A stretch of 64,000 bases of DNA from Echinarachnius parma (Eukaryota > Echinodermata > Echinoidea > Clypeasteroida > Echinarachniidae): assembly GCA_037951105.1 (NCBI GenBank), contig JBAMJV010008410.1:33547-97546 (forward strand). Reading direction: 5' to 3'. The position numbers and the translations under genes are program-made. The notes under the pieces were generated by a model. It was not told where the DNA came from. It did not search any database and worked only from the letters and a program-made list of their open reading frames with translations. Below are positions 28,766-59,684 of the stretch, in pieces (the first letter of the stretch is position 1; each line of letters opens with the position of its first letter).

Positions 28766-29050
28766 TTAAAGGGACTTGGTAACATTGTCCAAATCCTCAA
28801 AATAAAATTTGAATTCTAGCGGTTCCATCATACCTTGTTGTATTCGTATTAACAATAAAATCATGGGACAGGTTTCGTTTTTTCAAATATCCCTTTCGTT
28901 ACAAAGATATGTACGATTGAAGTATTCAGATAAGAAAAACTCCCCCAGAGTTTTTCATACCGTGTACAAAGTGAGTGCAGTGAGTCAGTGAATATCACTT
29001 TGCATTTTCGCTCATTACTTGGCCATGCAATGTCCATTTGACTTGAAATT
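28766..29050. mobile_element. TTAA-ended M5 repeat copy
   Basis: Starts TTAAAGGGACTTGGTAACAT and continues TGTCCAAATCCTCAAAAT, TTCTAGCGGTTCCATCATACC and GTGAGTGCAGTGAGTCAGT. The inverted copy ends at 32303. Confidence 0.6.
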
Positions 29051-29053
29051 AAT

Positions 29054-30322
29054 GCTGTTAGGTAAAGAAAAAATCCCGGATCGATCTCGGATCGGTAGAA
29101 TTCAAAATCGCTAACGAGATTCTCGGATTGGATCGGATCTCGGAAAAAAATAATATTGCAATTTGCTCTGAAAAAAATGCAGCGTTGTAGACTTATCTTT
29201 CTTGTTTTATATGCCAATAATATTAACAATGTTGACGCTTTGAGGCATGCACATATCAACCTTTACAGAAAAACAGTTACAGACTATTCAGAATTAACTA
29301 AGTTTCGCAAGAAAAGTATTTTTTCCGAAGTGAATTGGGCCTAGAAATCGATCGTTTGTTCAGCATCGCGCCACACATTCACAGAACTCAGCCGGCCAGT
29401 CACGGGGAAACATCACATGAAAATATGTACGATCTTCTTGGTGAGAGCCTTCAAAAAGTGGCTATAAATTAGCCTTTTTGTGATCAACACAATTTTGGTA
29501 GTCTACTTACATGATAACATGGCATTTGAAAGCTGAACAGATTTTTAAAAATACCCCCAAAACAATGAAAAACTGGGCTGAATATATTGATAAGTTTCCA
29601 AAGCACGTTCGTGAGGGAAGGTTGAAGTAGTTATGGTACCGGTAGCAGCAAGTTTTCGGGCCGCTGCACTGCTGGCATGTTTCACGCATATTCGCTCGTG
29701 TACGGGTCTTTGTTTCATACGCCGAATTCATCCGCGATCTGTTATGTATTATACATGTAGTTGTTATTTACCGATTTTTTTTAGTAGTTGTTTGCATTGC
29801 TTTGGGGCTCAGTTTTTTTCTGTTCAGCTTTTAAACGCCATGCAATCATGTAAGTGGAATATCAAAACATTTAAACATGGTGCAAATAACCAAAATACGT
29901 ATTTTGAGCCACTTTTAGAATGCACTGGCTGATCAGCTCGATCATACAGATATACATCTGAAGTCTCTCCGAGAGTGTCGGCCTAACCTTGTGTGCATTT
30001 CCGTCGGCAATATCGTTCAAATGACTAGCAATTTTGCGCATCCTGTTCAATTTTCGACTGCGAAACAAATTAATGAACCAAGAATTTCTCCAAAATAACC
30101 ACTCATAAATTAAACAATATTGATTCCCCCATTCTTTATTTAAATTACACTACTTAATGGACTGTCAAACATACACATTTTCAATAATTACTGGAGAAAA
30201 TGGGTCGGCAAAATCTTCTGATATTTTCTACCGAGAAAATTTATTTCTCGGATCCGTCTCAGATCCGGCTCAGAAGCGATTATCGCCGGGAAATCGGATC
30301 GTTCCCGGATCGGATAACAGCA
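29054..30322. mobile_element. GCTGTTATCCGATCCG foldback element, long copy
   Basis: GCTGTTAGG...GATCGATCTCGGATCGG on the left, and TCCCGGATCGGATAACAGC on the right. The roughly 1-kb interior shows no recognised coding sequence. Confidence 0.55.
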
Positions 30323-30373
30323 TTATTCATAACACACTACTCTCTGTAGGTATCTCATTCTCAATTCAGGTGT

Positions 30374-30893
30374 CTTGTCTCCTCCTTGGTCTGCCAGCCA
30401 GGCAAACAAATAAACACAATTGTTTCATCATTGATTGTATATTGATTGGAAACATAATAAAGATGATATCCTTGATCTGCGAGCCAGGCAAACAAATAAA
30501 CACAATTGATTTATCATCGATTGTATATTGATTGGAAACATAATAAAGATGATATCCATGATCTGCCAGCCAGGCAAATAAACACAATCGTTTTATCATC
30601 GATTGTATATTGATTGGAAACATAATAAAGATGATATCCTTGATCTGCGAGCCAGGCAAACAAATAAACACAATTGATTTATCATCGATTGTATATTGAT
30701 TGGAAACATAATAAAGATGATATCCATGATCTGCCAGCCAGGCAAATAAACACAATCGTTTTATCATCGATTGTATATTGATTGGAAACATAATAAAGAT
30801 GATATCCTTGATCTGCGAGCCAGGCAAACAAATAAACACAAGTGTTTTATCATTGATTGTATATTGATTGGAAACATAATAAAGATAATATCA
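30374..30893. repeat. Tandem repeat, alternating ~82/86-bp units (168-bp dimers)
   Basis: Six to seven units of GCCAGGCAAACAAATAAACA, TTTATCATCGATTGTATATT and GGAAACATAATAAAGATGAT. Alternate units differ by GATCTGCGAGCC versus GATCTGCCAGCC. Direct repeats containing ACACACTACTCTCTGT and TCTCATTCTCAATTCAGG flank both sides (about 30332-30373 and 30899-30945). The 157-codon reverse frame is a consequence of the array. Confidence 0.85.
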
Positions 30894-30993
30894 TTCGTAA
30901 CACACTACTCTCTGTTTTCTTATCTCATTCTCAATTCAGGTGTCTGTCTCCTCCTTGGTCTGCCAGCCAGGCAAACAAATAAACAGGAATTTG

Positions 30994-31372: not shown

Positions 31373-31459
31373 CTGATTGATGGTAGCACCTCCCTTGCCA
31401 ATAATGTTCTTGTGGAATTTCTTGAAGATTGGTAAAGACACCTGGTAGTTATTCTCCAC
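31373..31459 (-). CDS. HDLBP: Vigilin exon 12, first half of KH7; last vigilin exon in the window
   Basis: 29 codons: VENNYQVSLPIFKKFHKNII, then GKGGATINQ. Acceptor GTCTCCCCAAAG, donor GTAAGA in phase 0. The family continues with IREE...KIDLP, which I cannot find downstream. Confidence 0.92.
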
Positions 31460-34400
31460 CTTTGGGGAGACAGACAAAAACGTTTTATTTAACATGTATA
31501 TGAACAACAAGAAAGTGTTCAGTACTTTAGTTTGAAATATTTGGACACCATCATATTTCATACCTGCTAACAATTCAATTCTGGAAATAGGAACAAATTT
31601 GGCCGGGGGTCCAGGGGGCCACCTAGCGCCTCCAGCGAGGGTTCAGGGGCAGCGCCCCCTGAAGCTGACAAAAAAGCACCTTGAAGGGCCATTGGAGACT
31701 TACAATTATAGCAGAAAATGCAGTATATACATGTTTTGTTTTGTTTTTGTATTTGGTCATGCGTCGTGAGGTCGCCTCCTTTTGCGTTACATGCCATTTT
31801 GGGCTTCTGCGGGACAATGTTACAGTTGAGAGCAAATATTTGCTGAGGAAGACCCCCTACCCTATCGAAACTATACATTTTCTGAAAGGAAATTACCCAA
31901 GGAACCCAAATATGCACTCAGAAATAACACTGGGTGTACAGTTAATTGTTGATATTAACCAAAACATGAAATTTTGTTTACAGTTTTAGAGGTCAATAAT
32001 TTCCTGATAACTTTTTCTAAAGTAGCTCTAGACAAGAAATTATAATGTTTTATAATGAGCAAAAATGCAAAGTGATATTCACCAACTCATTGCACTGACT
32101 TTGTACACTGTTACGACTATCCAGTGGATAGTTTAACATCTGAACATTTCAATCGTTAATATCTTTTTATCGAAAGGGAAATTTGAAAAACCTGGACCTG
32201 TCCCATGCTTCTATCGTTAATACGATTACAACAAGGTATAAGGAAACCGCTAGAATTCCAACTGGATTTTGAGGATTTGGACAATGTTACTAGATCCCTT
32301 TAAGCAAGTAAATCCCTTACAAATTCTTTAGACAATTATGTTGCAGAACTGACCAATTCCTTGCTGAGCTCCTTGAGGAAGCGGTGGCAGAGGTCCACTT
32401 CTTGCTTTGGTCCACGCAGAGTGACCACATCGCTCTGCTTGCCTGGGTCTGGGAATGTGATTTGAACCTGTAGCAACCAAAGAGGAAAGAAACATTATGT
32501 GATGTATTGTGAGTAATGTTAATCACACTGATATGACAAAGCTTCTTGCTTTGGTCCATGCAGAGTGACCACATCGCTCTGCTTGCCTGGGTCTGGGAAT
32601 GTGATTTGAACCTGTAGCAACCAAAGAGGAAAGAAACATTATGTGATGTATTGTGAGTAATGTTAATCACATTGATATGACAAAGCTTCTTGCTTTGGTC
32701 CATGCAGAGTGACCACATCGCTCTGCTTGCCTGGGTCTGGGAATGTGATTTGAACCTGTAGCAACCAGAGGAAACATCATCTTAGGGTTAACCATTATGT
32801 GATGTTTGGGGAGTAATGGTAATTATTATCATTATTTTATTTGGCATCAAATACATTTACATCAAAACAAAACAGTAAGTTACAGAATAATTGTTATACA
32901 ATATTATATCCCTCATGAGATCGTTTTACCATTGAATTTGACCAACGATAGTTTTGGACAACTCGCAAAATAACGTGACCGGGGCGTTAGTAAAAAAATT
33001 AACTCTAAAAGTTCGTTACGCGCTCGTTCCATAGATCATGTGTTTAAGCAAAATGCACACGCGATCAAATTTGTGCAGTACTCTATGGCGCACACGTTCT
33101 AGTCACGTGATTGCCCTTGTTGGTAAAAACTATTCACCTAGGAAGAAGAACGCCAAGACAGCCAATAAGCACATCCGTGGGAGTGCTAGCACGCATTCAT
33201 CGCGCATGTGCGCAACTGCCAGCGCGTTGGTGCGCACTCAGTTTTGCGTCTTTGAGATTGTATGCGCAAAATAACAATGACTTTAAGCGTATTAGATGCG
33301 CCGTGGTTCTGGAGGCTCATACTGGCTTCATTAATGTCGATTGATTTTTATATCAAAATTTACAAGCGATTTTATGAAATATTCAAGAGATTTTCACTTA
33401 TTTTGCTATAAGCTGAACACAATCACTGATATTGAAGAGTGATATAAAACAACTAACGAATGTGCTTGATTGTGATAGGCAATCTATTACCTCGGTGGGC
33501 TCAAAATGACTATTACCCTCATCTACGCTTCGGGTAATAATCATTTTGAGCCCACCTCGGTAATAGATTTGACTATCACAAGAAGCCCATTCGTTAGTTG
33601 TATACTATCACATACATGCACCTAAATCTTGGTGTCAGCTGCACCTGGGCGAGCTGCCTGGGTATGGAAAAAGTGAACTTAATAATTGCTCTCCTTACCC
33701 GACCATGTGCAGCTGACAATATGAGAATAATTTCTTCAGCGGTTCAAGACAATTTATACAATTAATCAACTTATAATCACATTGATATGACAAAGCTTCT
33801 TGCTTTTGTCCATGCAGAGTAACCAGGGTCTGTTCGCAATGCATATACGGATCACTATTCATCATTTCTAAAAGGGTTCATTATTCCACCAATGACACCA
33901 ATAACGATCTATTTCAATCCTAAAGAACAAAACAAAGTCAAGAAAGTACCAGCAAGAAACACGCCAAGAAATGAATGTCTATATCACACACTTTGCCGTT
34001 ACTTTGTTTTGTTTACTACCAGACCTGTCCTCTAAATATACAGAACATTTTTCTTCCCAAAATGTCAATCAATGTTCATGTTTTATTGACAAGCTTGTAT
34101 TCCTCACCTGCTTGAATTTATCCCTGATTTCAATCAATGTTCATGTTTTATTGACAAGCTTGTATTTATTCCTCACCTGCTTGAATTTATCCCTGATTTC
34201 TTTGATGTAGTCTCCTTTGGAACCGATGATTGTGCGGTGGAATCGATGCTCAATCAAAATGTCCCTTGTCTTCTCATTCTCCTGTAAGCAAAATAAACAT
34301 TCAAATGTGAGATATTTTTATTGAAATGCATTTGTCTTGAACAAGCAGAAGAGAAAAACAATATATATTTTACAAAACAAAAGTACATTGCCATGAATGA

Positions 34401-37400
34401 TAATATCAGAAATTAAGTAGTTACCAGTTTACTTTGTCTTCTGGCAAACGAGCGATTGCAATATAACTTTCCATGGTCTGACAAATCAAATCTTTCTCAC
34501 ATAAAAAGTATTCTGTTAATCAAATGTAATTAGATTTTATCTACAGCAGCACATCGACTGGGCTACTAAGACTTACCAGTCTCTGAACTATCTCCAGCAG
34601 CTCTCTCTTGCCCTGCTGAATGCCCTTAATCCTACACTACTAGCACTTACCAGTCTCTGAGCTATCTCTAGCAGCTCTCTCTTGCCCTGCTGAATGCCCT
34701 TAATCCTACACTACTAGCACTTACCAGTCTCTGAGCTATCTCCAGCAGCTCTCTCTTGGCCTGCTGAATGCCCTCTGGGCTGCCCTCAATCCTGATCACA
34801 CTGCTCTTGTCCTCATCGCTGGGGATGCGGATGGAAACACCAGTCTCCTTCTTGATGCGGGTGACTGCACAGATAACAAAACACAAGGTTATGTCAGGTC
34901 AGGTTATGTTAGGTTACTAGTTACATGTAGGTCTGGGATTTCTCTCCCTTCTGAACTATAATTGTTCTTGCTTTGATTACCAACAGCACTAGTCCCTGAT
35001 ATAACACAAATATTATGAACTGATTGACTCCTCCTATTCAAGAAAACTAATCTTGGCACGTATGTTGATTTCATTACTATCTGCTTTAATTATTAAAGCA
35101 AATTCAGGCAGGTTTTGTGATAAAAAGCTTTGATAATAAGGGAGGTTGCTCACTGTTCCCATGAGGCTTGCAGATGGTGTTTGTGATACTTTGTGATTTA
35201 ACTCCTTGAGTGCCAAGCTTGCATTTTTGCGCATTAAAATCCCTGGCACTCGAAGCGTTAAGCTTTGATAATGAAAGAGGATACTTACTGTTTCCACCAG
35301 CCTTGCCGATGATGTGCTTGTGATACTTAGGGTCGATGTTGATGTCCTCGTACGACAGTCTGTTCTGAAGGTCCTTGGAGATCTCTTCCAGAGCAGCTTT
35401 GGCTTTCTCCACTTCCTCTGGAGGCCCCTCAACAGCAATGATGTCCCGGCCCTCTTGGAACTCCACATGGACCTACAAGTACAACACAATCAATATTCCT
35501 TACAGTGACCCTCCACAGCAATGATGTCCCGGCCCTCTTGGAACTCAACATGGACCTACAGTACAACACAATCAATATTCCTTACAGTGACCCTCCACAG
35601 CAATGATGTCCCGCCCTTCTTGGAACTCAACATGGACCTACAAGTACAACACAATCAATATTCCTTACAGTGACCCTCCACAGCAATGATATCCCGCCCC
35701 TCTTGGAACTCAACATGGACCTACAGTACAACACAGTCAATATCCCTTACAGTGACCCTCCACAGCAATGATGTCCCGCCCTTCTTGGAACTCAACATGG
35801 ACCTACAAGTACAACACAATCAATATTCCTTACAGTGACCCTCAACAGCAATGATGTCCCGCCCTTCTTGGAACTCAACATGGACCTACAGTACAACACA
35901 ATCAATATTCCTTACAGTGACCCTCCACAGCAATGATGTCCCGCCCTTCTTGGAACTCAACATGGACCTACAGTACAACACAATCAATATTCCTTACAGT
36001 GACCCTCCACAGCAATGATGTCCCGCCCTTCTTGGAACTCAACATGGACCTACAAGTACAACACAATCAATATTCCTTACAGTGACCCTCCACAGCAATG
36101 ATATCCCGCCCCTCTTGGAACTCAACATGGACCTACAGTACAACACAGTCAATATCCCTTACAGTGACCCTCCACAGCAATGATGTCCCGCCCTTCTTGG
36201 AACTCAACATGGACCTACAAGTACAACACAATCAATATTCCTTACAGTGACCCTCAACAGCAATGATGTCCCGCCCTTCTTGGAACTCAACATGGACCTA
36301 CAGTACAACACAATCAATATTCCTTACAGTGACCCTCCACAGCAATGATGTCCCGCCCTTCTTGGAACTCAACATGGACCTACAGTACAACACAATCAAT
36401 ATTCCTTACAGTGACCCTCCACAGCAATGTCCCGCCCTTCTTGGAACTCAACATGGACCTACAAGTACAACACAATCAATATTCCTTACAGTGACCCTCT
36501 ACAGCAATGATGTCCCGGCCCTCTTGGAACTCAACATGGACCTACAAGTACAATTTAGTCCATATTTCATACAGCGACCAACCACACAATGTATTGTTCA
36601 CATACCATAATACTTCGGGCTGATCTTTGAACGACCAAGATGTGAAAAGTTGTGGATTATACTTGTTTACCGTTACATTATTCTGCAAGCGACTTTCAAA
36701 ATGCTGTAATACATACTGTACAACTCAAAAGACAAGTAAAAGTGCAGATTTTGTGTTTATCTAGTACCAGGGAAAATATTAATCCGTTCCCTTTCGATAT
36801 TGTTCCAGTAAGCAACGGATTGAAATAAATTTGATGGGGCTACTTTTCAAGCTCACCTTCATGTAAATATCATTCTTAACCCGTTGAGGACTGTCCCAGA
36901 AATACTGAATGGGTTTAAACTGGTCTTGCATTGAACTCTATGCACATTACATGGCCTTATTACCCTGACACCCGAGGACTCGTAAGCTGCCTAGTACAGC
37001 CCCCTTTGAGCTAACTGACCTTGGGCAGGTTCTGTGTGATGTTCTTGATGGTCTTGCCCTGTCTACCAATGATGAAGCGATGCAGCCAGGCTGGGGCATA
37101 CACCTCCTCTAGCTTGATGCTGTTAGCCTAAAATGAACAAATGGTAAATAATAATAAGTAATTGTAAGCAGGGCTTGGCTTAGCAGTGGACCTGTCTGCC
37201 TATGATGAAGCGATGCAGCCAGGCCGGGCCATACACCTCCTCTAGCTTGATGCTGTTAGCCTGCAAACACACATAGTAAATAATAATTGTAAGCAGGGCT
37301 TGGCCTTAGCAAAGGAGCTCCTTGCTTGATGCTGTTAGCCTAAAATAAACTATATATAGTTAATAATTATTACTGTTAGTGTAATCATAAACCCTCTTGA

Positions 37401-40400
37401 GTACCATAGTCCATTCCAGTCACATGTGAATGTGTATACCTTTGCATAGACATGTGTGATGGCGATGTCAGAGCTACCAACATTGAAATTCAACAATCGG
37501 GAAGATTTAGGGCGATTTCATCAGCAATCAGGAAGATATCTATAAAAGGCATACAACCGAAGGACAATAATATTTTTTATAATCAGGAAGATTATCTTTC
37601 TGATGCAGTAATCTTGGTCCATTTTCAGAAAGTCTTATGCAAAATCAGGAAGACTTGGCAGCTCTGCAATGCATGTGTATACCTTTACATAGACCTATGT
37701 GATAGCACAGTGTGATAGCACAGTGATAGCACAGTGTGTGTGTGTGTGTATACCTTTGCATAGACCTATGTGATAGCAGTGTGTATGTATATGGCTCTGG
37801 TTTTTTTAAAGGTGCCAAAAGGCTTAATGGCACTTTGAGGGCCTGTATTTTTAAAAACATACTGAACTGAAAACTTATTTTTGTATTTTATTATAGCATC
37901 CACCTAGATTGATCTCCCATACCTTAACGAAAATATTTGGACTTCCCTTTATATAGGTCAGATAAGCCTAAAGGGCCAATTGTTAACGGAAATTTGTCAA
38001 CCAAAAATGGGTTCAATTATGTTCAGGTATAAAAAAACACTAACAGATTTTTTTGTTTTTTTATTTGGTGATAATTATGAACGAGTGAGTTAAACTTTCA
38101 GAAAATTAACAGCGCTTAATATGTAAAGTAATATTTTGACAGTACAATGCCATCAAAATTGGTGTTTCGGACGTTACATCCTCCGTTAACAATTTAACCC
38201 CTCATTACCCCTACCAGTATCATAATTTATTGAAATGATATCAGTATGAAAATTGAACTAACAGTTTCCTCATCATATTGCCTAAAAGGGAAATGACTGA
38301 TTTCTTAAGCCAGCGATTAAAAAAAAAAAAAACATGAAATGCACACATGCTCTCATTTTCCGTTAACAATTTTGTAACGTCCGAAACAATCTTTATTAGG
38401 ATATAATTAGAAAAAGGGGAATAACACAAACTACTTTTTATTTCACTTTTGAAGAGACTTGATGTACCCTCCCAACACAGAAAAAAATAATGTAATAGCT
38501 CATTGCGTTATGATTATATATTCAAAATCAACTTTCCTTTAACATTTGTAACATCCGAAACAAATGTAACGTCCGAAACAACAAATGTAACTTATAAGCT
38601 CATAAGTCACAGGAAAGGGCACATTATATGAATCAATCATCATAATATAAAATAGTATGCATTTTGAAACAATGTACACATGAATTGGGTAATTAATTGC
38701 CAAAACAAATGTTTGAGATCAACCAATGTAAACAAATGTGTTTCGGACGTTACATGGGGTAATTGTTAACACAAAATTGATATTTTAGTGCATTTATTTT
38801 CAAAATGATAATATATGGTTATTATTATTCATTTATATCATGTAAATGAAACATAATCATCAAAATACAGGATGCTTTAATAACATTTAGATGCTTAGTC
38901 TGCCCCACATCCACATTTTCACCAATTTTTCATCGATTTTTCTCAGCTAATTTGTAACCACTAAAGTTTTACAAGACACTTGATATAGTGAATGTTATGA
39001 CTAATCTAATTGGAACAATAACCTTTGTTTTGTGGAACTGAAACACTACCTGCTGCAACAACTCCTGTATTTTGTTTACCATTTACAGAATATTTTGTAT
39101 GGTATTGTGAGCTCGTTTCGGACGTTACAAAATGGTGTTAACACACATTTTGATTGCACAAAAAATTCAATTTGGAACATTTAAAAAAGTATTATCTACA
39201 TTTGTCATGATCTATATGCTTCCTGCTCCAGCAAAAGTGTTTTGAAAAATAAATGATCAGTTATTTGTCTCTGGGAAGGAACTTTTATTTATAAAATGTG
39301 AGGAATTGCTATTTTTCCTCATAATTGCTCATGTTGTAAAGTACACAGAACTACATGTATACTGATTTTGTTTTTTGTATCACATCAAATGCATTATTAG
39401 GTTGTTTGCCTTTATAATGTTCTATAAGAAACAAATGTTAAGTCTCTGTTTCATTATTCATTTATTGGAAATATAGATATTTTCATTAACAGAGCCTTTT
39501 AGTGGTATACAAAAGTACAGTATAACTATGCTAAATTTACTCTTCTGATATCATTCATTAGTTGCAAAACATGTTTTTCCATACTTAAACTTGATAAGAA
39601 GAAAATAATCTGCGTTGATCCACATGTTTTACTGACACTAATTAAAATGTTAATCATTTGTATTAAAAAAATCCACATGTTAAAACAAAAGTTAGTTTTG
39701 AAGTACTATATGGCATACACATGTACATGTATGCCATGTAAACTAAAGACCTGTACATGTACACCAAGATAATTCCTTATCTTATTCTTAAGACAATTTC
39801 CAGAACATTACTGGTTTATGATCAATTACATTTTTGTGTCAACTATCTTTGAAAAATGTAACCATACCTGCTGGAACAAATATATTTTCTTGACCGTAAC
39901 CTTATGTGGTAGATACAAGTGTACTGTACATGTGCCATTATAACTTGAATTTGAGGTTTTGCTAATATCATATTGATTAGTAATGCATTTATGACAGTTA
40001 TTCTAATTTTCGATAATAGTTTGATAAATTTAGTTTGAGCTTCATATTTTATCAAAATAAGAAAAAGGAAAATTCAAATCATATACAATGTATGTCATTG
40101 TACAATATATACTTTTATCTTTTGTATAAAAATGATGAAGGAAACTCTGGAAAGTCACATCGATCATCCTTTGACTGTATATAATAACAGTTTCTAATTG
40201 CATTTAATATTTGTACAAAATCTTGGATTTTGTCTATCAATATGGACTACATTCACTACCTCTTTCGTTGGGAGTTCAATTAATGCACATATTTATGGGT
40301 TTTGCTTGCAAAATCATGCAAACAAAGCGAGTTAAGATATGTTTTGAGTGATGTTAACACCATGTAACGTCCGAAACAAAATGGGGTATGTCATAACATA

Positions 40401-43400
40401 ATGCAACTTTACTACAATAAATTACAGATCACAATTCTCAAATTGTAGTTATTGTAGTACTAGGTACACAGTACTTCATAATTTCACTAAAAACCCTTAA
40501 AATTGTCTCTACTTTGGAGATCTGAACATATAATTATAGATAAATCAAGTTTACATGTACTGTACTGTATAATGTCATATATGGTTGATAGAAGACTCCT
40601 TTCTGTGCTATGAAGTTAATTTGACCATTTCAAAGAAGAATTTGGATAGATTTACATCTAAACATATATTTTCTGTATTTAAATATTCCAAAACAGCAAA
40701 GATTTAAACCACAACTTGTCATAGAAGTGTAAAAAAAGGGTAAATGTTAACAATGTGTGACGTCCGAAACACATACAAGAATGAAATTTGAATTTTTTTT
40801 GCAAGTGTCTTGCTCCAATTTTATATCATGTAAATATGTCCTATCATGTATTGTTTCCATACAATAAGTTTGAACCAACAACAGTAAACAAATTTTGCAT
40901 TACAAAAACTTCAAATTGCAAAATTCAAATTTTAAGGCTATTTTTCACTTTAAAATGGCCTAAAAAGTAAAATTTAAGAAACAGAAGCCCCCAAAATGGC
41001 ACACATGATGTCAGAAGCCCACTTTAATTATTTATATTATTTGTAATGCCATTTGGAATAGTAGGATTTTAGTATGGCAATGTGAAAATATATCATATTT
41101 TCTTTTAAATATAGGAAATCCTAAATGTTCATAGATATTTCGCAGAATTGGGGATAGATTAAGCCCAGATATTTATATTTCACGAAAATATAAGTTGTGT
41201 CAATGTTAAAAAAACATGTTTGAAGCTAGTTCACTTAATTTCAATTTTGACCATGTTGGTTGACACATTTGGCATCTTTAAAAAAACCAGTGCCATATAC
41301 CTTTGCATAGACCTGTGTGATGGCAGGCCCCAGCTGGACCTGTTCTCCCCTCAGGGTGATGGTCTCCGAGGAGCTCTCCGAGGGAGGTACTTCCACCGAC
41401 ACACCGGTCTCCTTCAGGATGGCCATCAGGTTGCTGCCCCGTGGACCAATCACGTAGCGGTGCTGAGATTTGCGCACCTCCAGGGCGACCGTCGTCGTAT
41501 TCAGTTTCTGTCAAGGACAATTGAAAAGAAATACAGGAGTTTTACATTTCTTTAAATAGATTAAAATCGAGAAAAGCAAATTAGTTCTTTTTTGTGACAA
41601 GACATTTTAGTTGATCTTGTAAATGTGCCAAAGTGTGATGTCACAGCCTTTCCCCTTGAGCAACAAGTATAATTCGCAACCCTACAGTATAGACATTGTG
41701 TCATTCCCCTTCATCAAGTTATATAAGGTAAAGATGCTCATATAAAATTGCTGCAAGTTCCTTTGGGGCAAATCCCATAACAAAATGATCTTAAGAATAG
41801 GGTTGGTTATTGAGCATATCTATAAGTTCATACTTGCCAACATTTGAAAGTCAGAAAACTGAACACCATGTGCACGAAGCGTACATCACGAGCACACAGT
41901 CCCTTTAACCGAGGAAGCTCTGGGGTCCCATATGCTCTCTGGTGCAATCTGAGCCTATTTTAGGGATCATTTCCCCTGAAATTCAACCCAAGTTTATGGG
42001 TAATTTTTGTGTCGTTCCAAAAAAAAAAGTGATTGAAGTGAATTGTGCTCAACTAAAAATTCGGTAAAACAAACCACTGCATTGATAACGGAAGTGTCTG
42101 CCTTTTTGCCGAACAATAATGTCATTTTCTTCGATGTCTTGGACGCATTCACTTCGGCTTGCTCATTGACATTGTCTTTATATGCTTTTTCTTCGATATG
42201 TGCATCATAATGTCGTTGGCTCCTCCACCACTGATCTAAGACTGTCTTTATGATCTTGCCAACAATAAATGCAGTATGCATATTCCTCCCCTTTTTTGCT
42301 TCTTCTAAAACGGGGAAATTGTTCCTTGTATTCCTGTCTGTACTTCTGAATTCGTCTCGCTGCTGTTCCGCTCATGGTTGCTTATATTTTGACAGATTTT
42401 CTTCCGAAAGGCGAAATAAATTGCAAATGCGCCGTATCAGATTTCTTACGAGATTGCCAGCGCAAATATTTACGTACGGAAACGTTTGTACATCAAGCGA
42501 GTTGATCGCGTAGCTCGTGAGCTCTACCGTCTTGGCCAAACCTATGCGATGCATGCAATGAACGGTATATTTAGGTACGGGTACGGTTCGGTCGCTTACA
42601 TTATTACACGCTGCACACATATTAGAGTTGCGCGTAGCAACACGCTGTCACTGATCTGTACGTTGTGCACGCTGCACACACCTTGCGCAATGCAATCTGT
42701 TCAGCACTCGATCGGATCGATGCTATGGAAAGCCGAATTCCCCCAAATCGGAACGTTCAGTTTTTTAGGGCTATAAAAACTTCAAAAACGGAACAGTTCC
42801 GTTAAAAACGGAACGGTTGGCAAGTATGAGTTATGTTAAGAGTAATTAGTAACACAAGACTCCAGCATCCACTATTATAACACACCGGAGTATTTAGAGG
42901 GTTAAACAACGTTTGACCATAACTACCTTATCCTCATAGGTCCTAAGGATGATATTCTTTGCCTCCATAACACCTTCCTTCTCCCCGGAAACCACAATCT
43001 CGTCCTTCTGGGCTCTGAGGGGCGGCACGCTGATCTTGGCACCGGTCTGTGCAGACAGCTCCTGGATGAAACGGTTCTCTGGGCCACAGATGAACGGGTG
43101 ATACTTGTATGGCACATGCAGACGCTCAAAGGCTCTCATGGCCTGCAATAGTTCAATGTTGGACAAACAATTCATCATTATGAGTAAGGGAATAAAATTA
43201 CAGATGAACTGGTGCTACTTGTATGGCATATGCAGTCGCTTGAAGGCTCTCTTGGCCTGCAATAGTTCAATGTTGGGCAAACGATTCATTAGTCGTTGCT
43301 GTAAAAATGTCTATGATAATAATTGGTATAAATACCACTACAGATGAACTTTCATGCTAATCATTCAGAGGGTTTCTTATTTAAATGTAAATTGTATGGA

Positions 43401-46400
43401 GCAGGCAGCAACTCAAAATCTATCTATCTATAAGTGGGTAGATAAATTGTTTAATTTTCATAAGGTTTATTAGGGACTGGTTATACAAGTTGTTGAATGA
43501 TAGAGTTGTACCAATCACAGCATAACAATAGCTAAAGATTGTATCATAATAAATTCAGTCATACTGCCCCCAACATACAACACACATGAAACGGTATGCT
43601 TGGTGTGCAATTCAAACCCCAGCATCAACACACACACACATGAAACAATTATGCCTGGTGTGCAATTCAAACAAGTACTGAGAAGAATGGATTCTGACCT
43701 GCTCATCCGATATGAGTTGCAATTCGTGCCTTGCTTGGTCGATACCTTCTTTGGGGCCCACAATCTTGATCATGTCTGAGTTCTCGGCGCTGTTAGGGAG
43801 GGTGATCTTGGTCATGGTCACCTGTTCCAACTCACGCAGTTTCTTGCCCTCCCGACCAATCACGAACCGGTGATGCTCTTTGGGGATTTGGATTGTGATG
43901 TTGGCCTGGAAAGAAAAAGGTTGCAAGAGGAATAATAACCCATACATTCTATGATAATACAATCTAGTGCTGAATTCATCAGCAAAACAAACTAAAAGAG
44001 ATCTTAAAATGATCATGTTAATTACCATTCTGCAAACGATGTATATCTTTGTCACAGCTGGCCACCATGTTAGGGTGATTTACAAGTTATCATTAACTAT
44101 CTTGTCATTAGTGCTAAGAGAGATATTTGAGCATCAATATAATATTCACTGCTCAAATTAAGCACTGGTCAGCATGCCATAGGATGCTAAAAATAAGCTT
44201 CCAGCCACACACATTATACTAAAGGCACTTGCCCACCTGGGCAACTAATAGTAAGACTGAGTCGGTTCGGTCGGTCACACGGGTTCCCGACCGTCACACG
44301 GGTTCCCGACCGTCACCACCGGGTCCCCATTTTGTTTTTTCGGAACCGGTGCCCGAAAAAACAACAAAAAAAACAAAACATTTTAATGCCCATGTATCAG
44401 AATATACAATTTTCTCATATTCAAAAAAAGTGGTTAGTAAAAAATTAGCTTATGAATATTTCGGAGCAGCAATATGTTACTGCTCATTCACAAATTTTTT
44501 ACTAACCACTTTCTTGAATATGAGAAAATTACTCCTTCAAGTAGTAAACACAAATGGGCGCACGCCTAGATAGGCCAGTGTGTTTCAGACAACGAAAATC
44601 ATGATTTAAAAAATATATATATATTTTTCGGGGCACTGGTTCCCGACCGGTGCAAGTCGATCAGGACCCGGTTAATGAAATAACTGTAATGACTCGGGCC
44701 AACTTATAGAAACAGACTTTTTTATGCTTTCTTCTTTCTTTGGGACCAGTTAATACTTGATATAAACCACCACAATTGTATATTAATAATTAAGTAGTCT
44801 GTTAGTCTGTAGTTTGTTAATTAATTACCAAGTACCCGAGTCTGTAGTTTATTTTTTACTAAGTACCTGAGTCTGTAGTTTGTTCATTACTAAGTACCCG
44901 AGTCTGTAGTTTGTTCATTACTAAGTACCTGAGTCTGTAGTTTGTTCATTACTAAGTACCTGAGTCTGTAGTTTGTTCATTACTAAGTACCTGAGTCTGT
45001 AGTTTGTTCATTACTAAGTACCTGAGTCTGTAGTTTGTTCATTACTAAGTACCTGAGTCTGTAGTTTGTTCATTACTAAGTACCTGAGTCTGTAGTTTGT
45101 TCATTACTAAGTACCTGAGTCTGTAGTTTGTTCATTACTAAGTACCTGAGTCTGTAGTTTGTTCATTACTAAGTACCTGAGTCTGTAGTTTGTTCATTAC
45201 TAAGTACCTGAGTCTGTAGTTTGTTCATTACTAAGTACCCGAGTCTGTAGTTTGTTCATTACTAAGTACCTGAGTCTGTAGTTTGTTCATGACTTCCCTC
45301 CTAGCCTTCAACACGACCTCCTCCTTGCCGGTCACTACAATGGTCAAGCTCTGATCTTTGGCCAGACTCATCTCAATGCTCGCATCTAAATGGAGCAAAG
45401 GGAACATTAAAGGGACTTGGTAACATTGTCCAAATCATACAATGCTCGCATCTGAATGGAGCAAAGGGAACATTAAAGGGACTTAGTAACATTGTCCAAA
45501 TCATACAATGCTTGCATCTGAATGGAGCAAAGGGAACATTAAAGGGACTTAGTAACATTGTCCAAATCATACAATGCTTGCATCTGAATGGAGCAAAGGG
45601 AACATTAAAGGGACTTGGTATCATTGTCCAAATCATGCAATGCTTGCATCTGAATGGAGCTGAAGGAACATTATTGAAATCAAATTAGTAATAGATAAAT
45701 TAAAGAAAAACAGGTTCAGAGCAGATATTCATGATTCATAAACACGTCTCCAGATCTGTGCCAGTCATCATATACAAATACCAGCAACGGCATATTTGGG
45801 GCGAGGAGCACCCCCCCCCCCCCCCCCCCCTTTACTCATCCCAACTAGCTCAGGCACAGCAATTTGTTTCATTTTGTTTTCTGCTTGCTTGCTATAATGT
45901 ATGCCACCTGGACCTGTGCTTATAGACTACCATATAAAATGATTACTAATGGCATATATCACACCCCCTTTCCCCTCCTCCCACACCCCCTTTCCCCTCC
46001 CCCCCCCCCCCCCCCACAAGCACAGCAATTTGTCTCCTTTTGTTTTCTACTTGCTTGCTTTGTATGGCCCCTGGACCTCTGCTAAGGCCCTGCCCCCTGG
46101 ACCCGGGCTGCCATGGGCCCAAGGGTAGAACCCTCGAGTACACTGGAATCGGCTATCGCTAATGCAATCACAGATTGCAGCTCGCCCTTTCCGGATTACT
46201 GGCTGCGCCACAGACTACTAACGTTCTAGACAAACAATGATCTGTACTGGCCGGTGGTATATACAGCAAACTACTATCTAGACAACAATAAATGTACTAC
46301 TATCAAGACTCACTTGTGTGTTTCATGACGTCAGCACATATTTTGCTGGACTGACTACCAGATTCACCAAATCCCTGGTTCATCTCTTTGTATCGACGCT

Positions 46401-46984
46401 CTTCTAAAGGCACATGGAAAACCTGCAGAAAACAAGAAAATCAAAAATTGCTAAAAAAATCAAGAGTTAGTGTTATTGCTAAAGAATCAAGTAAATATGA
46501 ACAAATAAAACTTATAAACAAAATATGTAACTTATCAGATGCAATGATAAGTTCTTCCAAAGGAATTAACTTCTTTAGTCATAAAAAAGAATGATTTAAG
46601 AAAGATATTTTTCAAAAGTACACGTACCTGAGTTACTACGGAAGACTTGACAGCCATTCTGGCATAAGAGGCGCCGTGTGTTTTGGCACCTGGCTTGGGG
46701 CCACGGCCAGCTGGGGCACTCTCCATGGGCGGGAAAGCTTCATCGTAGGTGGGTGCAGGGGGCTCATACGCCTCCTCCTCTACACTGAAGCTGTTGTTGG
46801 AGTCATTGGGGATGCTGCCCACTGGTCCAGGCCCTGGGCTACCTACTGGTCCAGGCCCTGGGCTACCTACTGGTCCAGGCACTGGGGTGCCCACTGGTCC
46901 AGGCACTGGGCTGCCCACTGGTCCAGGCCCTGGGGTGGGGAACGTGCTGCCACTGCCGGGCAGGAATTGAGGATCTGTACTCAT
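31373..46984 (-). CDS. HDLBP: Vigilin (HDLBP), start codon to mid KH7; C-terminal half missing
   Basis: Complement of join(31373..31459, 32354..32467, 34177..34281, 34725..34864, 35289..35472, 37020..37127, 41301..41507, 42927..43142, 43699..43905, 45270..45385, 46314..46422, 46628..46984); every junction is GT-AG and in phase, about 650 residues. Vigilin is a multi-KH RNA-binding protein that associates with ribosomes, ER-bound mRNAs and tRNAs. Visible: a Pro/Gly repeat N-terminus, the conserved VFHVPLEERRYKEMNQ and LAKDQ segments, then KH1-KH6 and the first half of KH7. The GxxG loops read GREG, GPEN (KH2, degenerate as in other vigilins), GPRG, GRQG, GKAG, GSKG and GKGG. Metazoan vigilins have 14 KH domains and about 1,250 residues; exons for the second half of KH7 onward are absent from 31.4 kb down to the window start. 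Many exons have duplicated junctions in adjacent introns. Confidence 0.93.
31565..31700. repeat. GC-rich repeat fragment
   Basis: TCTGGAAATAGGAACAAAT, GGGTCCAGGGGGCCACC and GGGGCAGCGCCCCCTGAAGC, unlike the AT-rich intron around it. Looks like the end of an element, boundaries uncertain. Confidence 0.4.
31995..32303. mobile_element. M5 repeat, inverted copy
   Basis: Ends GGACAATGTTACTAGATCCC TTTAA, the reverse complement of the start at 28766. Internal words AACGATTGAAATG-like and TCATTGCACTGACTTTG match in inverted order. Ends 50 bp before vigilin exon 11. Confidence 0.6.
32354..32467 (-). CDS. HDLBP: Vigilin exon 11, second half of KH6
   Basis: 38 codons: VQITFPDPGKQSDVVTLRGP, then VDLCHRFLKELSKEL. 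Acceptor GGTTGCTACAG, donor GTCAGT. Confidence 0.93.
32470..32765 (-). repeat. Two extra copies of the vigilin exon 11 acceptor region (~146-bp units)
   Basis: Units at about 32543-32616 and 32690-32762 repeat the first 67 or so coding bases of exon 11 with its TTGCTACAG acceptor plus intron sequence. Each copy breaks after ACCAAAGCAAG into intron. They differ from the real exon by CATGGACC for CGTGGACC. Confidence 0.9.
32766..33448. other. Intronic sequence, partly GC-richer
   Basis: AT-rich at first, then a patch at 32960-33330 with GCGCACACG, GCGCATGTGCGC and GTGCGCAC words that looks like an element interior. The open frames there lack family signatures. Confidence 0.35.
33449..33601. 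repeat. 153-bp imperfect palindrome
   Basis: Outer arms CAACTAACGAATG / CATTCGTTAGTTG and inner arms CTCGGTGGGCTCAAAATGA / TCATTTTGAGCCCACCTCGG, with CTATTACC/GGTAATAG between. The loop is TCATCTACGCTTC. Confidence 0.85.
33780..33830 (-). repeat. Remnant of the exon 11 duplication unit
   Basis: CACATTGATATGACAAAGCT followed by TCTTGCTTTTGTCCATGCAG repeats the 32.5-32.7 kb unit boundary about 1 kb away. Confidence 0.75.
34066..34140 (-). repeat. Duplicate of the vigilin exon 10 donor end
   Basis: CCTCACCTGCTTGAATTTAT CCCTGATTTC at about 34103-34132 repeats the last eight codons and the CAG/GTGAGG donor of exon 10, preceded by a shared ATGTTTTATTGACAAGCTTG segment. Confidence 0.9.
34177..34281 (-). 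CDS. HDLBP: Vigilin exon 10, first half of KH6
   Basis: 35 codons: ENEKTRDILIEHRFHRTIIG, GSKG loop, YIKEIRDKFKQ. Acceptor TTGCTTACAG, donor GTGAGG. Confidence 0.93.
34573..34724 (-). repeat. Two extra copies of the vigilin exon 9 donor end (~75-bp units)
   Basis: CTTACCAGTCTCTGA(A/G)CTATCTC and the CAGCAGCTCTCTCTTGCCCTG block occur at about 34575 and 34646 as well as in the true exon end at 34721. Each copy has the CTG/GTAAG donor. Confidence 0.9.
34725..34864 (-). CDS. HDLBP: Vigilin exon 9, second half of KH5
   Basis: Encodes TRIKKETGVSIRIPSDEDKS, EGIQQAKRELLEIAQRL. Acceptor TTATCTGTGCAG, donor GTAAGT. The split first codon completes to Ile, as in the family (GGNI-TRIK). Confidence 0.92.
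35289..35472 (-). CDS. HDLBP: Vigilin exon 8, end of KH4 and start of KH5
   Basis: Encodes VHVEFQEGRDIIAVEGPPEE, then INIDPKYHKHIIGKAGGN. Acceptor TTGTACTTGTAG, donor GTAAGT. Its first 45 or so bases and acceptor are repeated 13 times upstream in the intron. Confidence 0.93.
35500..36560 (-). repeat. Tandem array of 13 copies of the vigilin exon 8 acceptor (~83-bp units)
   Basis: Each unit reads, on the minus strand, TAG/GTCCATGTTGAGTTCCAAGA and on through GGGACATCATTGCTGTGGAG, then about 35 bp of intron. GGACCTACA marks fall at about 35550, 35635, 35715, 35800, 35883, 35966, 36049, 36132, 36215, 36295, 36378, 36453 and 36538. The variant with GATATCCCGCCCCTC recurs 416 bp apart (about 35690 and 36106), showing a five-unit higher-order period. 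Confidence 0.95.
36561..37019. other. Unique intronic sequence
   Basis: No repeat unit or exon recognised between the exon 8 acceptor array and exon 7. Confidence 0.4.
37020..37127 (-). CDS. HDLBP: Vigilin exon 7, first half of KH4
   Basis: 36 codons: NSIKLEEVYAPAWLHRFIIG, then GRQG loop and KNITQNLPK. Acceptor TTGTTCATTTTAG, donor GTCAGT. Confidence 0.92.
37188..37350 (-). repeat. Extra copies of the vigilin exon 7 acceptor end
   Basis: On the minus strand, TTTGCAG/GCTAACAGCATCAAGCTA with GAGGAGGTGTATGGCCCGG repeats the first 70 or so bases of exon 7 and breaks off after CAGACAG. A shorter third piece (CTTGATGCTGTTAGCCTAAA) is at about 37325. The copy's acceptor is at least as good as the real one. 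Confidence 0.88.
37430..37790 (-). repeat. Copies of the vigilin exon 6 donor end, with a TG tract
   Basis: TATACCTTTGCATAGAC(A/C)T(A/G)TGTGAT occurs near 37436, 37679 (TTTACATAG) and 37749, matching the true exon 6 end at 41297-41330 about 3.6 kb away. A (TG)n tract and GATAGCACAGTG repeats lie between. Confidence 0.8.
37930..41180. repeat. AT-rich intron block with eight TGTAACGTCCGAAACA words
   Basis: The 16-bp word or its complement occurs at 38163 (-), 38373 (+), 38547 (+, 1 mismatch), 38565 (+), 38739 (-), 39114 (-, 1 mismatch), 40363 (+) and 40756 (+, 1 mismatch). Six of the eight have GTTAAC within about 20 bp on the same relative side. Unit spacing is irregular and no terminal repeats or coding frames are clear. 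Confidence 0.8.
41301..41507 (-). CDS. HDLBP: Vigilin exon 6, KH3
   Basis: 69 codons in phase 0: TVALEVRKSQHRYVIGPRGS, ILKETGVSVEVPPSESSSET, ending AITQVYAK. Acceptor TGTCCTTGACAG, donor GTATAT. Confidence 0.94.
41829..42828. mobile_element. 1-kb element with CATACTTGCCAAC ends and a decayed coding fragment
   Basis: Inverted ends CATACTTGCCAAC and GTTGGCAAGTATG. A reverse-strand frame (41994-42281) reads KKMTLLFGKKADTSVINAVV, CFTEFLVEHNS and then degenerates; the FTxFLVEHN phrase is one I associate with a repeated, hAT-like invertebrate protein family, which is a recollection rather than a search result. Lies in the intron between KH2 and KH3 exons. Confidence 0.6.
42927..43142 (-). CDS. HDLBP: Vigilin exon 5, KH2
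   Basis: 72 codons in phase 0: AMRAFERLHVPYKYHPFICG, the degenerate loop GPEN, and EIVVSGEKEGVMEAKNIILR. Acceptor ACTATTGCAG, donor GTAGTT. Confidence 0.93.
43195..43290 (-). repeat. Diverged copy of the vigilin exon 5 acceptor end
   Basis: On the minus strand, ACTATTGCAG/GCCAAGAGAGCCTTCAAGCG, then CTGCATATGCCATACAAG and an in-frame TAG. It matches the first 50 or so bases of exon 5 with about 15% change, so it is older than the exon 8 array and could not be used in frame. Confidence 0.85.
43580..43690 (-). repeat. Small duplication beside the vigilin exon 4 donor
   Basis: GAAAC(G/A)...TATGC(T/C)TGGTGTGCAATTCAAAC occurs twice (about 43588 and 43642) just downstream of the exon 4 donor. Unlike the others it does not include exon sequence. 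Confidence 0.7.
43699..43905 (-). CDS. HDLBP: Vigilin exon 4, KH1
   Basis: 69 codons, phase 0 at both ends: ANITIQIPKEHHRFVIGREG through ELQLISDEQ. Acceptor TTTCTTTCCAG; donor GTCAGA is weaker than the others. Confidence 0.93.
44256..44690. mobile_element. GACTGAGTCGGTTCGG foldback element, copy 2
   Basis: Starts ACTGAGTCGGTTCGGTCGG and ends near TAATGACTCGGGCC. Inside, an inverted pair (TTTTCTCATATTCAAAAAAA...CTTGAATATGAGAAAATT) with AGTGGTTAGTAAAAAATT arms. Related to 25053-25503. Confidence 0.6.
44805..45269 (-). repeat. 31-bp tandem array, about 15 copies of the vigilin exon 3 donor
   Basis: Each unit on the minus strand reads AACAAACTACAGACTCAG then GTACTTAGTAATG, which is the last 18 coding bases of exon 3 (KLQTQ end) followed by its donor and 13 bp of intron. 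The unit touching the exon is the true junction. Outer units at about 44805-44870 are more diverged. Confidence 0.95.
45270..45385 (-). CDS. HDLBP: Vigilin exon 3
   Basis: Acceptor TTTGCTCCATTTAG, donor GTACTT. Encodes ASIEMSLAKDQSLTIVVTGK and ARREVMNKLQTQ. Both ends of this exon are embedded in tandem arrays, 66-bp acceptor copies on one side and 31-bp donor copies on the other. Confidence 0.92.
45386..45660 (-). repeat. 66-bp tandem array with four extra copies of the vigilin exon 3 acceptor
   Basis: CGCATCT or TGCATCT marks fall at about 45382, 45448, 45514, 45580 and 45646. On the minus strand each unit ends TTTGCTCCATTCAG/ATGCAAGCATTG, repeating the acceptor and first exon 3 bases. Each unit also contains TTAAAGGGACTTGGTAACAT, the start of repeat family M5. 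Confidence 0.93.
45661..46313. other. Vigilin intron 2 with C-runs
   Basis: Two long C-runs (about 45811-45830 and 45999-46015), each within copies of a CAGCAATTTGT(T/C)TC segment (45855 and 46023), so a local duplication. No other feature. Confidence 0.5.
46314..46422 (-). CDS. HDLBP: Vigilin exon 2
   Basis: Acceptor GTTTTCTGCAG, donor GTGAGT. Encodes VFHVPLEERRYKEMNQGFGE, then KICADVMKHT. Conserved non-KH segment. Confidence 0.92.
46628..46984 (-). CDS. HDLBP: Vigilin first coding exon
   Basis: ATG at 46984-46982, 119 codons, then donor GTACGT. It opens MSTDPQFLPGSGSTFP, carries five to six PGPGPVGS-like octapeptides, then YEPPAPTYDEAFPPMESAP and AVKSSVVTQ. PPTYxxAFPP and SxVTQ match the vertebrate vigilin N-terminus. 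5' UTR continues to an acceptor at 47018 (CCTTTTTGCAG), so a further non-coding exon lies upstream. Confidence 0.9.
46810..46935. repeat. 24-bp coding tandem repeat in vigilin exon 1
   Basis: Units of ACTGGTCCAGGCCCTGGGCT with small variants, about five copies in frame, giving Pro-Gly-Pro-Gly-Pro-Val-Gly-Ser/Thr octapeptides. 24 is a multiple of 3, so length changes keep frame. Confidence 0.85.
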
Positions 46985-47017
46985 GGTCTAGGGTCGTGAT
47001 CAGTGTCGACAGTACCA

Positions 47018-48326: not shown

Positions 48327-48530
48327 CCACTTGGTCTACAACCATTTGGTCCATTCCCATTTGGTCTACTTAAAAATTATGAATCTGGCGGCTTAATTAT
48401 GATTATGATTATGATTATGGATTATGATTAGGGTTAGGGTTGTGGATTAGGGTTAGGGTAAGAGTTAGGGTTAGGGTTAGGGTTTTGGAGGCATCAGGTA
48501 GTAGACCAAATGGGAAGTAGACCAACTGAG
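48327..48530. mobile_element. Small element with TTGGTCTAC ends and interstitial telomere repeats
   Basis: CCACTTGGTCTAC and CATTTGGTCTACTT on the left mirror GTAGACCAAATGGGAAGTAG on the right. The core is (GATTAT)n grading into (TTAGGG)n variants at about 48424-48486. Confidence 0.7.
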
Positions 48531-53729: not shown

Positions 53730-53879
53730 TAGTCCGGCAGCCAAACCCTGATTTTTGGCCTAACCTTGTTTTGATGAAGTAAGTTTTTTTTTCAATGGAT
53801 TCCGATTGTCTAGGTATCTACTTTGAACAAGCAAAAAACTGGAGCTCTGTCACTCTTGAGCAATTTGAGATATAAGCAA

Positions 53880-55400
53880 AAACAAAATGGCCGCCAAAAT
53901 AGCCTATTTTGAGTAAAATTTGAATTATTTCATAATACATTACAAAATATTGGCAGAATAGGGTGCTTGTAATTCACGAAGACCATTGTGAACACATTTC
54001 TGATGAACATACATGAACATAGACATAATTTGAATATTTTCCATTTTATTTTTTGCTAATTTGCATATTCAAAATGGCAGAAAAATACAAAATGGCCGCC
54101 AAATAGCCTATTTTGAGTAAAATTTGAATCATTTCATAATACATTACAAAATATTGGCAGAATAGGGTGCTTGTAATTCACGAAGACCATTGTGAACACA
54201 TTTCTGATGAACATACATGAACATAGACATAATTTGAATATTTTCCATTTTATTTTTTGCTAATTTGCATATTCAAAATGGCAGAAAAATACAAAATGGC
54301 CGCCAAATAGCCTATTTTGAGTAAAATTTGAATCATTTCATAATACATTACAAAATATTGGCAGAATAGGGTGCATGTAATTCACGAAGACCATTGTGAA
54401 CACATTTCTGATGAACATACATAAACATAGACATAATTTGAATATTTTCCATTTTATTTTTTGCTAATTTGCATATTCAAAATGGCAGAAAAATACAAAA
54501 TGGCCGCCAAATAGCCTATTTTGAGTAAAATTTGAATCATTTCATATTACATTACAAACTATTGGCAGAGTAGGGTGCTTGTAATTCACGAAGACCATTG
54601 TCAACACATTCCTGGTGATCGTACATGAACATAAACATAATTTGAATATTTTTCATTAAATTTGTTGCTAATTTGCATATTCAAAATGGCGGATAAAAAC
54701 AAAATGGCCGCCTAATAGCCTTTTTTGAGTAAAATTTGAATTATTTCATAACTACATTATGAAATATTGTCAGAGTGGTGTGCTTGGTATTCACGAAGAC
54801 CATTGTCAACACATTCCTGATGAACATAGACATAATTTGAATATTACCAATTTAATTTTTGCTAATTTGCATATTCAAAATGGCGGATTCAAAACAAAAT
54901 AGCTGCCAAAATAGCCTATTTTTTAGTAAAATTTGAATTATTTCATAATACATTATTAAATATTGGCAGAATAGTGTGCTTGTAATTCATGAAGACCATT
55001 GTCATTGATCTCTTTCCTGATGACCATACATGAACATAAATATAATTTGAATATTATCCATTTTATTTTTTGCTAATTTGCATATTTAAAATGGCGGACA
55101 ATATACAAAATGGCCACCAAAATAGCCTAGTTTGAGTAAAATTTGATTGATTTCATAATACATTAAGAAATATTGGCAGAGTAGTGTGCTTGTAATTCAC
55201 GAAGACCATTGTCATTGATCTCATTCCTGATGACCATACATGAACATAGATATAATTTGAATATTATCCATTTTATTTTTTGCTAATTTGCATATTCAAA
55301 ATGGCGGACAATAGACAAAATGGCATCCAAGCAAAATAGCCTATTTTTAGTAAAATTTGAATTATTTCATAATACATTATCAAATATTGGCAGAGAGCTA
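53880..55400 (+). repeat. Left subterminal array, ~204-bp units, about 8 copies
   Basis: The AGCCTATTTT mark falls at 53901, 54105, 54309, 54513, 54717, 54913, 55124 and 55338. Units contain AAAATGGC(C/A)GCC, ATTGGCAGA, CACGAAGACCATTGT and AATTTGCATATTCAAAATGG. Confidence 0.92.
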
Positions 55401-55441
55401 ATGAGTGTGACATCGGGTTCTTGACAGATGTTGTGCAGTGA

Positions 55442-55878
55442 GATAACTGTCCTGAATGCAATGGATATGATACGCATTTGTGTCGCAATCCAGGAAAAGC
55501 CACACAACCCAAAACTAAAGCAGTGTATCTACCATTGATTGATATGCCCCCAGCCCATCCAGACACGATCATGACAGTCATGACCAAAGCACAGCAGTTA
55601 ACAGAGAAAACATGTCAAGGTTTCACTGTCTTCACACCAGATCAACAAACTGTATATTGTTGCAGAGGGTTACAACGGGCATATCCAAACCTATTTCTTT
55701 AGGTCATTCCACGATTAGGGGGTATGCATATGCTGATGAGTTTTGTAGGTGCAGTCGGAACATTGATGACTGACTCGTGCCTAATTGCAGATGTTCTGGC
55801 ATCTGCAGGTGTGGGTAAAACGCTTACAGGAAAGAAATTTCCTATGAACATGACAGCCATGTGCATGAGGAGGTAGCG
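55442..55878 (+). pseudogene. Transposon-borne gene, 5' fragment (PIN/FEN-like family, broken)
   Basis: Frames read AVYLPLIDMPPAHPDTIMTV, the gap-crossing TVYCCRGLQRAYPNLF, then after a frameshift MHMLMSFVGAVGTLMTDSCL and GKKFPMNMTAMCMRR. I recall this sequence style (GGMHMLMSFVGAVG...) from multi-copy uncharacterised invertebrate proteins. The second part of the same gene is at 58603. At least one stop and one frameshift, so non-functional here. Confidence 0.6.
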
Positions 55879-55996
55879 ACATTGTTGTGCAGGGACACCT
55901 GAATTATCACAGCGTTCTCATGACAACGCTTGAGGACCTTGCAAAGAGAAGTCGCACAACAAAGATGTGGGTCGACAACCTAATCAAGCACTATAT

Positions 55997-56076
55997 TCAA
56001 ACCAGTTTTGATAATGATGCTGTATGTACAGGCTGATCAGCCCGTACATACAGCATCATTATCAAAACTGGTTTGA
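55997..56076. repeat. Perfect 33-bp-arm inverted repeat
   Basis: TCAAACCAGTTTTGATAATG and ATGCTGTATGTAC are followed after AGGCTGATCAGCCC by the exact complement. It lies where the broken gene stops and shortly before the LINE insertion. Confidence 0.9.
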
Positions 56077-56165
56077 CGAGAAGGTGATTGGCTACGACAC
56101 CCGGATGCAGTGAAGCTCATGATGCCATACTTCTTCTTCTTCTTGCGTATGAGGCAGCACAGCTT

Positions 56166-57690: not shown

Positions 57691-57692
57691 TG

Positions 57693-59680: not shown

Positions 59681-59684
59681 TACT

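Follow-up and report, generated by a model that had tools for sequence, protein, structure and literature searches.

Tandem duplications spanning exon edges in the vigilin gene of Echinarachnius parma resemble the mirages of amphioxus

The window analysed here comprises 64,000 nucleotides of the Echinarachnius parma assembly GCA_037951105.1 (1.2 Gb in 14,790 contigs), corresponding to positions 33547-97546 of contig JBAMJV010008410.1, hereafter C8395. Besides NDUFS8 and RANBP1 it contains, on the minus strand, twelve exons of the vigilin gene (HDLBP), whose in-frame gene model gives 650 uninterrupted codons, its introns starting with GT and ending with AG. The 650-residue product carries KH_1 and KH_Vigilin domains according to Pfam, and the best solved structures for it among PDB chains include vigilin domains. 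Rfam, searched at the gathering threshold, gave no match in the window. The exons below follow from the in-frame model; the last two lines give a coding repeat and an element with inverted ends.

46628..47017, minus strand: vigilin exon 1 (ATG at 46984)
46314..46422, minus strand: vigilin exon 2, no crossing duplicate found
45270..45385, minus strand: vigilin exon 3
43699..43905, minus strand: vigilin exon 4, no crossing duplicate found
42927..43142, minus strand: vigilin exon 5
41301..41507, minus strand: vigilin exon 6
37020..37127, minus strand: vigilin exon 7
35289..35472, minus strand: vigilin exon 8
34725..34864, minus strand: vigilin exon 9
34177..34281, minus strand: vigilin exon 10
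32354..32467, minus strand: vigilin exon 11
31373..31459, minus strand: vigilin exon 12, the last vigilin exon found in the window, no crossing duplicate found
46814..46934, minus strand: 24 bp coding repeat within exon 1, keeping the frame and crossing no junction (self-comparison and gene model)
29047..30334, minus strand: element lying within the exon 13 acceptor array, its ends inverted as judged by eye (contig comparison)

A sequence-only reading of the window had taken vigilin for a gene of twelve exons. The complete gene, found on contig C8498, has 23 exons and, with the modelled splice sites, encodes 1302 amino acids and one terminal stop. Over window positions 29047-53731 this contig is 99.91% identical to the window, and it carries exon 13; the absence of this exon from the window is put down to a probable chimera near 29,047 in the window contig, be it through assembly or through exchange between element copies. 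On C8498 the element at this position is flanked by the same 8 bp, GTTATGAA, on both sides, whereas in the window this motif stands on one side only and the far side differs, so that the chimera was probably joined here. An alignment of the two vigilin contigs is free of gaps for 18,054 bp and shows 99.98% identity, and judging from this match they probably represent the same haplotype; because they are so nearly identical over 18 kb, they do not provide independent proof that the arrays described below were assembled correctly.

Several features outside the vigilin exons deserve mention. The window contig holds a 7.4 kb insertion at 53732-61107, absent from C8498. Its ends, read by eye, are inverted, and close to them lie two arrays with units of about 205 bp; it also contains a reverse-transcriptase fragment. 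At 48396-48484, about 1.4 kb upstream of vigilin exon 1 and beside the tandem-duplication hot spot discussed below, lie degenerate, telomere-like repeats of the TTAGGG type. Elsewhere in the assembly, the mitochondrial contig C14600, with genes named by their reading frames, carries on one strand ND1, ND2, COX1, ND4L, COX2, ATP6, COX3, ND3, ND4, ND5 and CYTB, in this order, and on the opposite strand ND6 and the tRNAs for Ser, Asp, Val, Ala and Gln; this is the gene order of sea urchins and sea cucumbers. Its COX1 has an AAA codon at the MNxMSFW position, which is presumably asparagine in other animals, while six lysines are encoded by AAG. The mitochondrial contig is thus of echinoderm type and speaks against amphioxus, which had been the first guess for the source.

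What surrounds the splice sites of the vigilin gene? When the window was compared with itself and with the gene model, local direct repeats (31-47 kb) were found to cross ten of the 24 splice sites that belong to the twelve window exons, namely the acceptors of exons 3, 5, 7, 8 and 11 and the donors of exons 3, 6, 8, 9 and 10. Thereby all eight exons for which the sequence-only reading had claimed junction-crossing repeats (exon 3 at both ends and exons 5, 6, 7, 8, 9, 10 and 11) were recovered, and an old copy at the exon 8 donor and the acceptor array of exon 13 were added. The following features come from self-comparison of the window, except for the last, which comes from comparison with C8498.

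45374..45673, minus strand: exon 3 acceptor array, 66 bp unit, 4 extra copies
44804..45294, minus strand: exon 3 donor array, 31 bp unit, 14 extra copies
43086..43289, minus strand: exon 5 acceptor with one copy 114 bp upstream, 90% identical
37425..37784, minus strand: exon 6 donor edge in three copies, each with 24-26 bp of exon and 5 bp of intron, at a distance of 3.5-3.9 kb from the true donor (41301)
37058..37387, minus strand: exon 7 acceptor with two upstream copies (84% and 78%)
35426..36592, minus strand: exon 8 acceptor array, 82-83 bp unit, 13 extra upstream copies, higher-order period of about 412 bp
35125..35328, minus strand: exon 8 donor with one old copy (80%)
34563..34774, minus strand: exon 9 donor array, 74 bp unit, 2 extra copies
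34062..34200, minus strand: exon 10 donor with one copy 69 bp downstream
32398..32823, minus strand: exon 11 acceptor array, 144 bp unit, 2 extra copies, with a further fragment at 33774-33825
30322..30985, minus strand: exon 13 acceptor array, 86 bp unit, 7 copies

Across these arrays the anatomy is the same: the tail of an intron with the head of its exon, or the end of an exon with the head of its intron, is repeated on the intron side, with copies mostly 30-230 bp apart. Over the complete gene, the sites hit are 7 acceptors and 8 donors, or 15 of the 45 splice sites, and each has 1 to 14 extra copies, where the earlier estimate was one to about fifteen; seven sites have a single extra copy. 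Identities range from about 99% down to about 77%, bearing out the described spread from near-identical to old, but exon 5 (90%), which had been named as the oldest case, is surpassed in divergence by the exon 8 donor (80%) and by one exon 7 copy (78%). Likewise, the copies are neighbours of their sites, as described, at 13 of the 15, where the nearest one lies 31-176 bp away, but not at exon 6, whose copies start 3.5 kb downstream of the donor; for the exon 13 acceptor the nearest copy is 1.4 kb off. An inserted element in the interior of intron 6 may have split exon 6 from its donor copies. Two of the 15 families, at exons 6 and 18, cross the junction with only 5 bp of intron. As breakpoints and ages differ from site to site, with the nearest copies so close to most of them, the copies stem from recurrent, independent events, which is what the sequence-only reading had proposed.

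The arrays were also considered as dispersed repeats, an explanation that we rejected: when 14 of the 15 crossing vigilin families, all but that of exon 6, were compared with 171,445 bases from elsewhere, the sole recurrence was a piece of 29-30 bp from the exon 3 acceptor array, which is found on three of the other sequence pieces. A dispersed element may therefore be partly contained in that array. Within intron 6, the AT-rich interior (38164-40770) holds seven copies of GTTTCGGACGT or its complement ACGTCCGAAAC, which are all such copies in the window.

As far as their sequence goes, the introns are indeed loaded with decoy acceptors and donors: 54 of 55 vigilin copies keep AG or GT, as do 20 of 25 copies in the CCT genes described below, and at the exon 3 donor 11 of the 14 downstream copies are identical to the true site over twelve bases around it. 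In eight genes (HSPD1 and CCT3 excluded), 74 of 80 copies keep these dinucleotides, compared with 62.3 expected from the copies' own divergence, and thus there is no sign that the decoy sites are eroding. Among 30 sites from vigilin and five CCT genes, extending the exon to the nearest intact decoy would change the frame at 22 and would lead to a premature stop at 29, so that the regulated splicing that had been envisaged is, as far as coding isoforms go, not favoured. Stops are, of course, expected wherever intron sequence is read through. In a search for copies that was restricted to the intron side and took in up to 100 bp of exon, the modelled splice site is always the innermost among its copies; use of the innermost site would fit exon definition.

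Are these copies at junctions more often than expected? Of the 23 local duplication families in the complete vigilin gene, 15 cross a real splice site, while random placement of the units predicts 2.6 and did not reach 15 in any of 100,000 simulations. A more conservative test, in which the gene model was shifted against all copies, yielded a mean of 7.4 (P 0.0008, 20,000 shifts). Among young families, defined as at least 90% identical, 9 of 17 cross, with 1.5 expected. The first test used, a circular shift of the junctions at the level of positions, was not significant (13 of 45 vigilin sites, mean 11.1); in our opinion this is because the decoy arrays themselves fill intron sequence, and it is for this reason that the family-level tests were adopted.

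For comparison we used seven chaperonin genes of one Pfam family, picked before their repeats were viewed: CCT1, CCT3, CCT5, CCT6, CCT7, CCT8 and HSPD1, named by their fit to the human proteins. Several of the models are partial, and further contigs with matches to the family lie outside the sample. All seven genes have crossing copies, at 22 of 133 sites and in 22 of 54 families, compared with 6.7 families expected; they are mostly old and two-copy, and at 14 of 19 CCT sites the nearest one is 107-226 bp away, with the others farther. Tandem families in eight genes are spaced by less than 250 bp in 54 of 55 cases, in a search up to 400 bp. Thus, the process is not specific to vigilin, and the observation that the sequence-only reading had itself named as telling against it, an equal frequency at ordinary genes, is partly borne out, in a sample rather than genome-wide. 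NDUFS8 and RANBP1 are free of such copies, as had been stated (0 of 16 sites, 0 of 9 families), in a contrast that is weak (P 0.07 against five CCT genes). Between these two genes, at 15039-15350, there is a 71 bp tandem array with AG- and GT-like sites in its unit, which could be a junction array of an unrecognised gene; one frame through it has no Pfam match.

For the nine non-vigilin genes together, crossing families number 22 out of 63, whereas unit placement predicts 7.3 and did not reach the observed number in any of 200,000 trials, and at spacings up to 300 bp the same test gives 17 of 42, with 5.3 expected. In the shift test, however, 22 compare with 16.7 expected (P about 0.06), and vigilin and CCT1 are the only single genes below 0.05; of the young families outside vigilin, 1 of 6 crosses, with 0.48 expected. 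Because of this shift result and the scarcity of young cases, the junction excess outside vigilin is not secure and depends on the null chosen, and old crossing copies are also easier to detect, since their exon half is conserved. What does set vigilin apart is, on the one hand, the overall share of crossed sites, 15 of 45 compared with 22 of 149 in the other nine genes (P 0.009; P 0.056 against five CCT genes alone), and, on the other, the age of the copies: young ones cross 9 of 45 vigilin sites and 1 of 149 sites elsewhere (P 8e-6). The density of young tandem families is 5.1 per 10 kb for the vigilin gene, compared with 1.4-2.3 for its flanks and 0-1.4 for ten other stretches. Old crossing copies are thus widespread within our gene sample, and vigilin looks like a present hot spot.

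Two further observations were made in the CCT genes. In CCT7, on contig C5279, a 92 bp exon piece recurs 3.8 kb away at 97.8% identity, not in tandem. CCT5 is found on two contigs, C6105 and C8375, presumably two haplotypes, at 84-96% identity, mostly 94-96%, and with many gaps, compared with 99.98% for the vigilin contigs.

A precedent for these structures is provided by the mirages of amphioxus, as reported for Adh3, the globins BflGb6 and BflGb9, PGBD5 and troponin C (PMC3087553, PMC3902484). In these accounts a mirage is a minisatellite-like tandem duplication across an exon-intron boundary, be it at the start or at the end of the exon, with units of 10-72 bp in Adh3 and 150-160 bp in a globin and with varying unit numbers (PMC3087553, PMC3902484); many copies, not all, keep AG or GT (PMC3087553). 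The vigilin copies have the same anatomy, with tandem, boundary-spanning units of varied length and number at 15 splice sites, at either exon end (7 acceptors, 8 donors) and with AG or GT in 54 of 55 copies here and 20 of 25 in the CCT genes. They differ from mirages in where they are found, an echinoderm rather than a cephalochordate, and not in how they are built. They also appear denser: 15 of 45 sites in one gene and seven of nine further sampled genes of the same genome, compared with mirages in two of fifteen amphioxus globin genes and degenerate repeats in a third (PMC3087553). According to the same paper, mirages do not interfere with normal splicing, as seen by RT-PCR, and their lengths differ between haplotypes; their mechanism is called unclear, and they are proposed as raw material for new introns (PMC3087553). 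A likeness is also evident to the AGGT model of intron gain, as presented in a review, in that gene segments carrying splice signals are tandemly duplicated, but in that model a duplicated exonic AGGT segment becomes both ends of a new intron (PMC3443670). The vigilin unit, in contrast, holds an existing exon edge together with its intron flank, of at least 5 bp at the 15 sites, and the copies lie inside modelled introns. Tandem exon duplication with mutually exclusive splicing, finally, also repeats exon sequence beside an exon; in vigilin, however, exon edges rather than whole exons are copied (exon side searched to 100 bp), and the stops predicted at 29 of 30 sites on decoy use in vigilin and the five CCT genes do not suit such splicing.

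We consider it likely that the repeats are the echinoderm counterpart of amphioxus mirages, that is, small tandem duplications whose unit spans an exon edge and which are tolerated as by-products. The copies would arise through ordinary tandem duplication, after which some arrays would expand by unequal exchange. They would persist if, by exon definition, splicing pairs the true innermost sites on the two sides of a short exon, and use of a decoy would mostly yield mRNA with premature stops. For the bias towards edges over intron interiors, the simplest candidate is exon-biased mutation combined with the loss of duplications inside coding sequence. The junction-prone repair suggested in the sequence-only reading may also be at work. 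At exons 9 and 10 the ends of the young units, read by eye, appear to have no more than one to three bases in common, as would be compatible with end-joining or template switching. At present, vigilin looks like a local hot spot for tandem duplication.

Could such a pattern have come about by chance? Where many exons meet many intronic minisatellites, some of the latter will include junctions, and the conserved exon half eases the detection of old ones. The non-significant position-level test, the borderline shift test outside vigilin, the lack of a clear excess of young copies there and the fact that many CCT matches are mostly exon sequence are all in line with this. We nevertheless judge chance unlikely, given that both family-level nulls are exceeded at vigilin and that the excess is found among its young families, for which detection bias should be small. 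It is also conceivable that the arrays are kept as functional decoys, their extra sites tuning vigilin output, for instance through unproductive splicing and mRNA decay. The nearly complete preservation of AG and GT in the vigilin copies, the near-universal premature stops on decoy use and the concentration of young copies in this gene would suit such a role. However, similar copies occur in chaperonin genes, units, sizes and sides vary between sites, stops are what any read-through of an intron would give, and normal splicing is reported or inferred in the amphioxus papers (PMC3087553, PMC3902484), so that we regard functional decoys as improbable.

Misassembled or falsely repeated copies might be suspected as well, given that the window contig is a probable chimera, with its join at about 29,047, and almost duplicates a part of C8498. 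Yet the copies carry their own substitutions, unit size differs at each site, the exon 8 array has a higher-order period, and crossing copies are present on seven other contigs, with identities of about 71-90%; an assembly artefact is accordingly very improbable. Starting from the preferred reading of the repeats as mirage counterparts, a more far-reaching scenario can be put forward tentatively. In it, exon edges would be a hot zone for tandem duplication in both echinoderms and amphioxus, many splice sites would regularly be ringed by fresh decoys, and vigilin would be caught in the middle of a burst, with exon definition strong enough to work with fourteen donor copies beside the true one, eleven of them identical over twelve bases.

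A literature search of titles and abstract openings found no earlier account of such duplications in an echinoderm, a result that leaves their absence unproven; as far as this search shows, the phylum is new, as is the density at vigilin. While mirages were named in amphioxus from a handful of genes, in the cited accounts (PMC3087553, PMC3902484), the echinoderm case extends to one third of the splice sites of one gene and to seven of nine others. This suggests a continuing mutational process akin to the one in amphioxus, and a wider one, acting as a source of cryptic splice sites and perhaps also of new introns or exons. The donor of exon 3, with its 14 copies, and the acceptor of exon 8, with 13, are natural experiments on how a true splice site is chosen among look-alikes.
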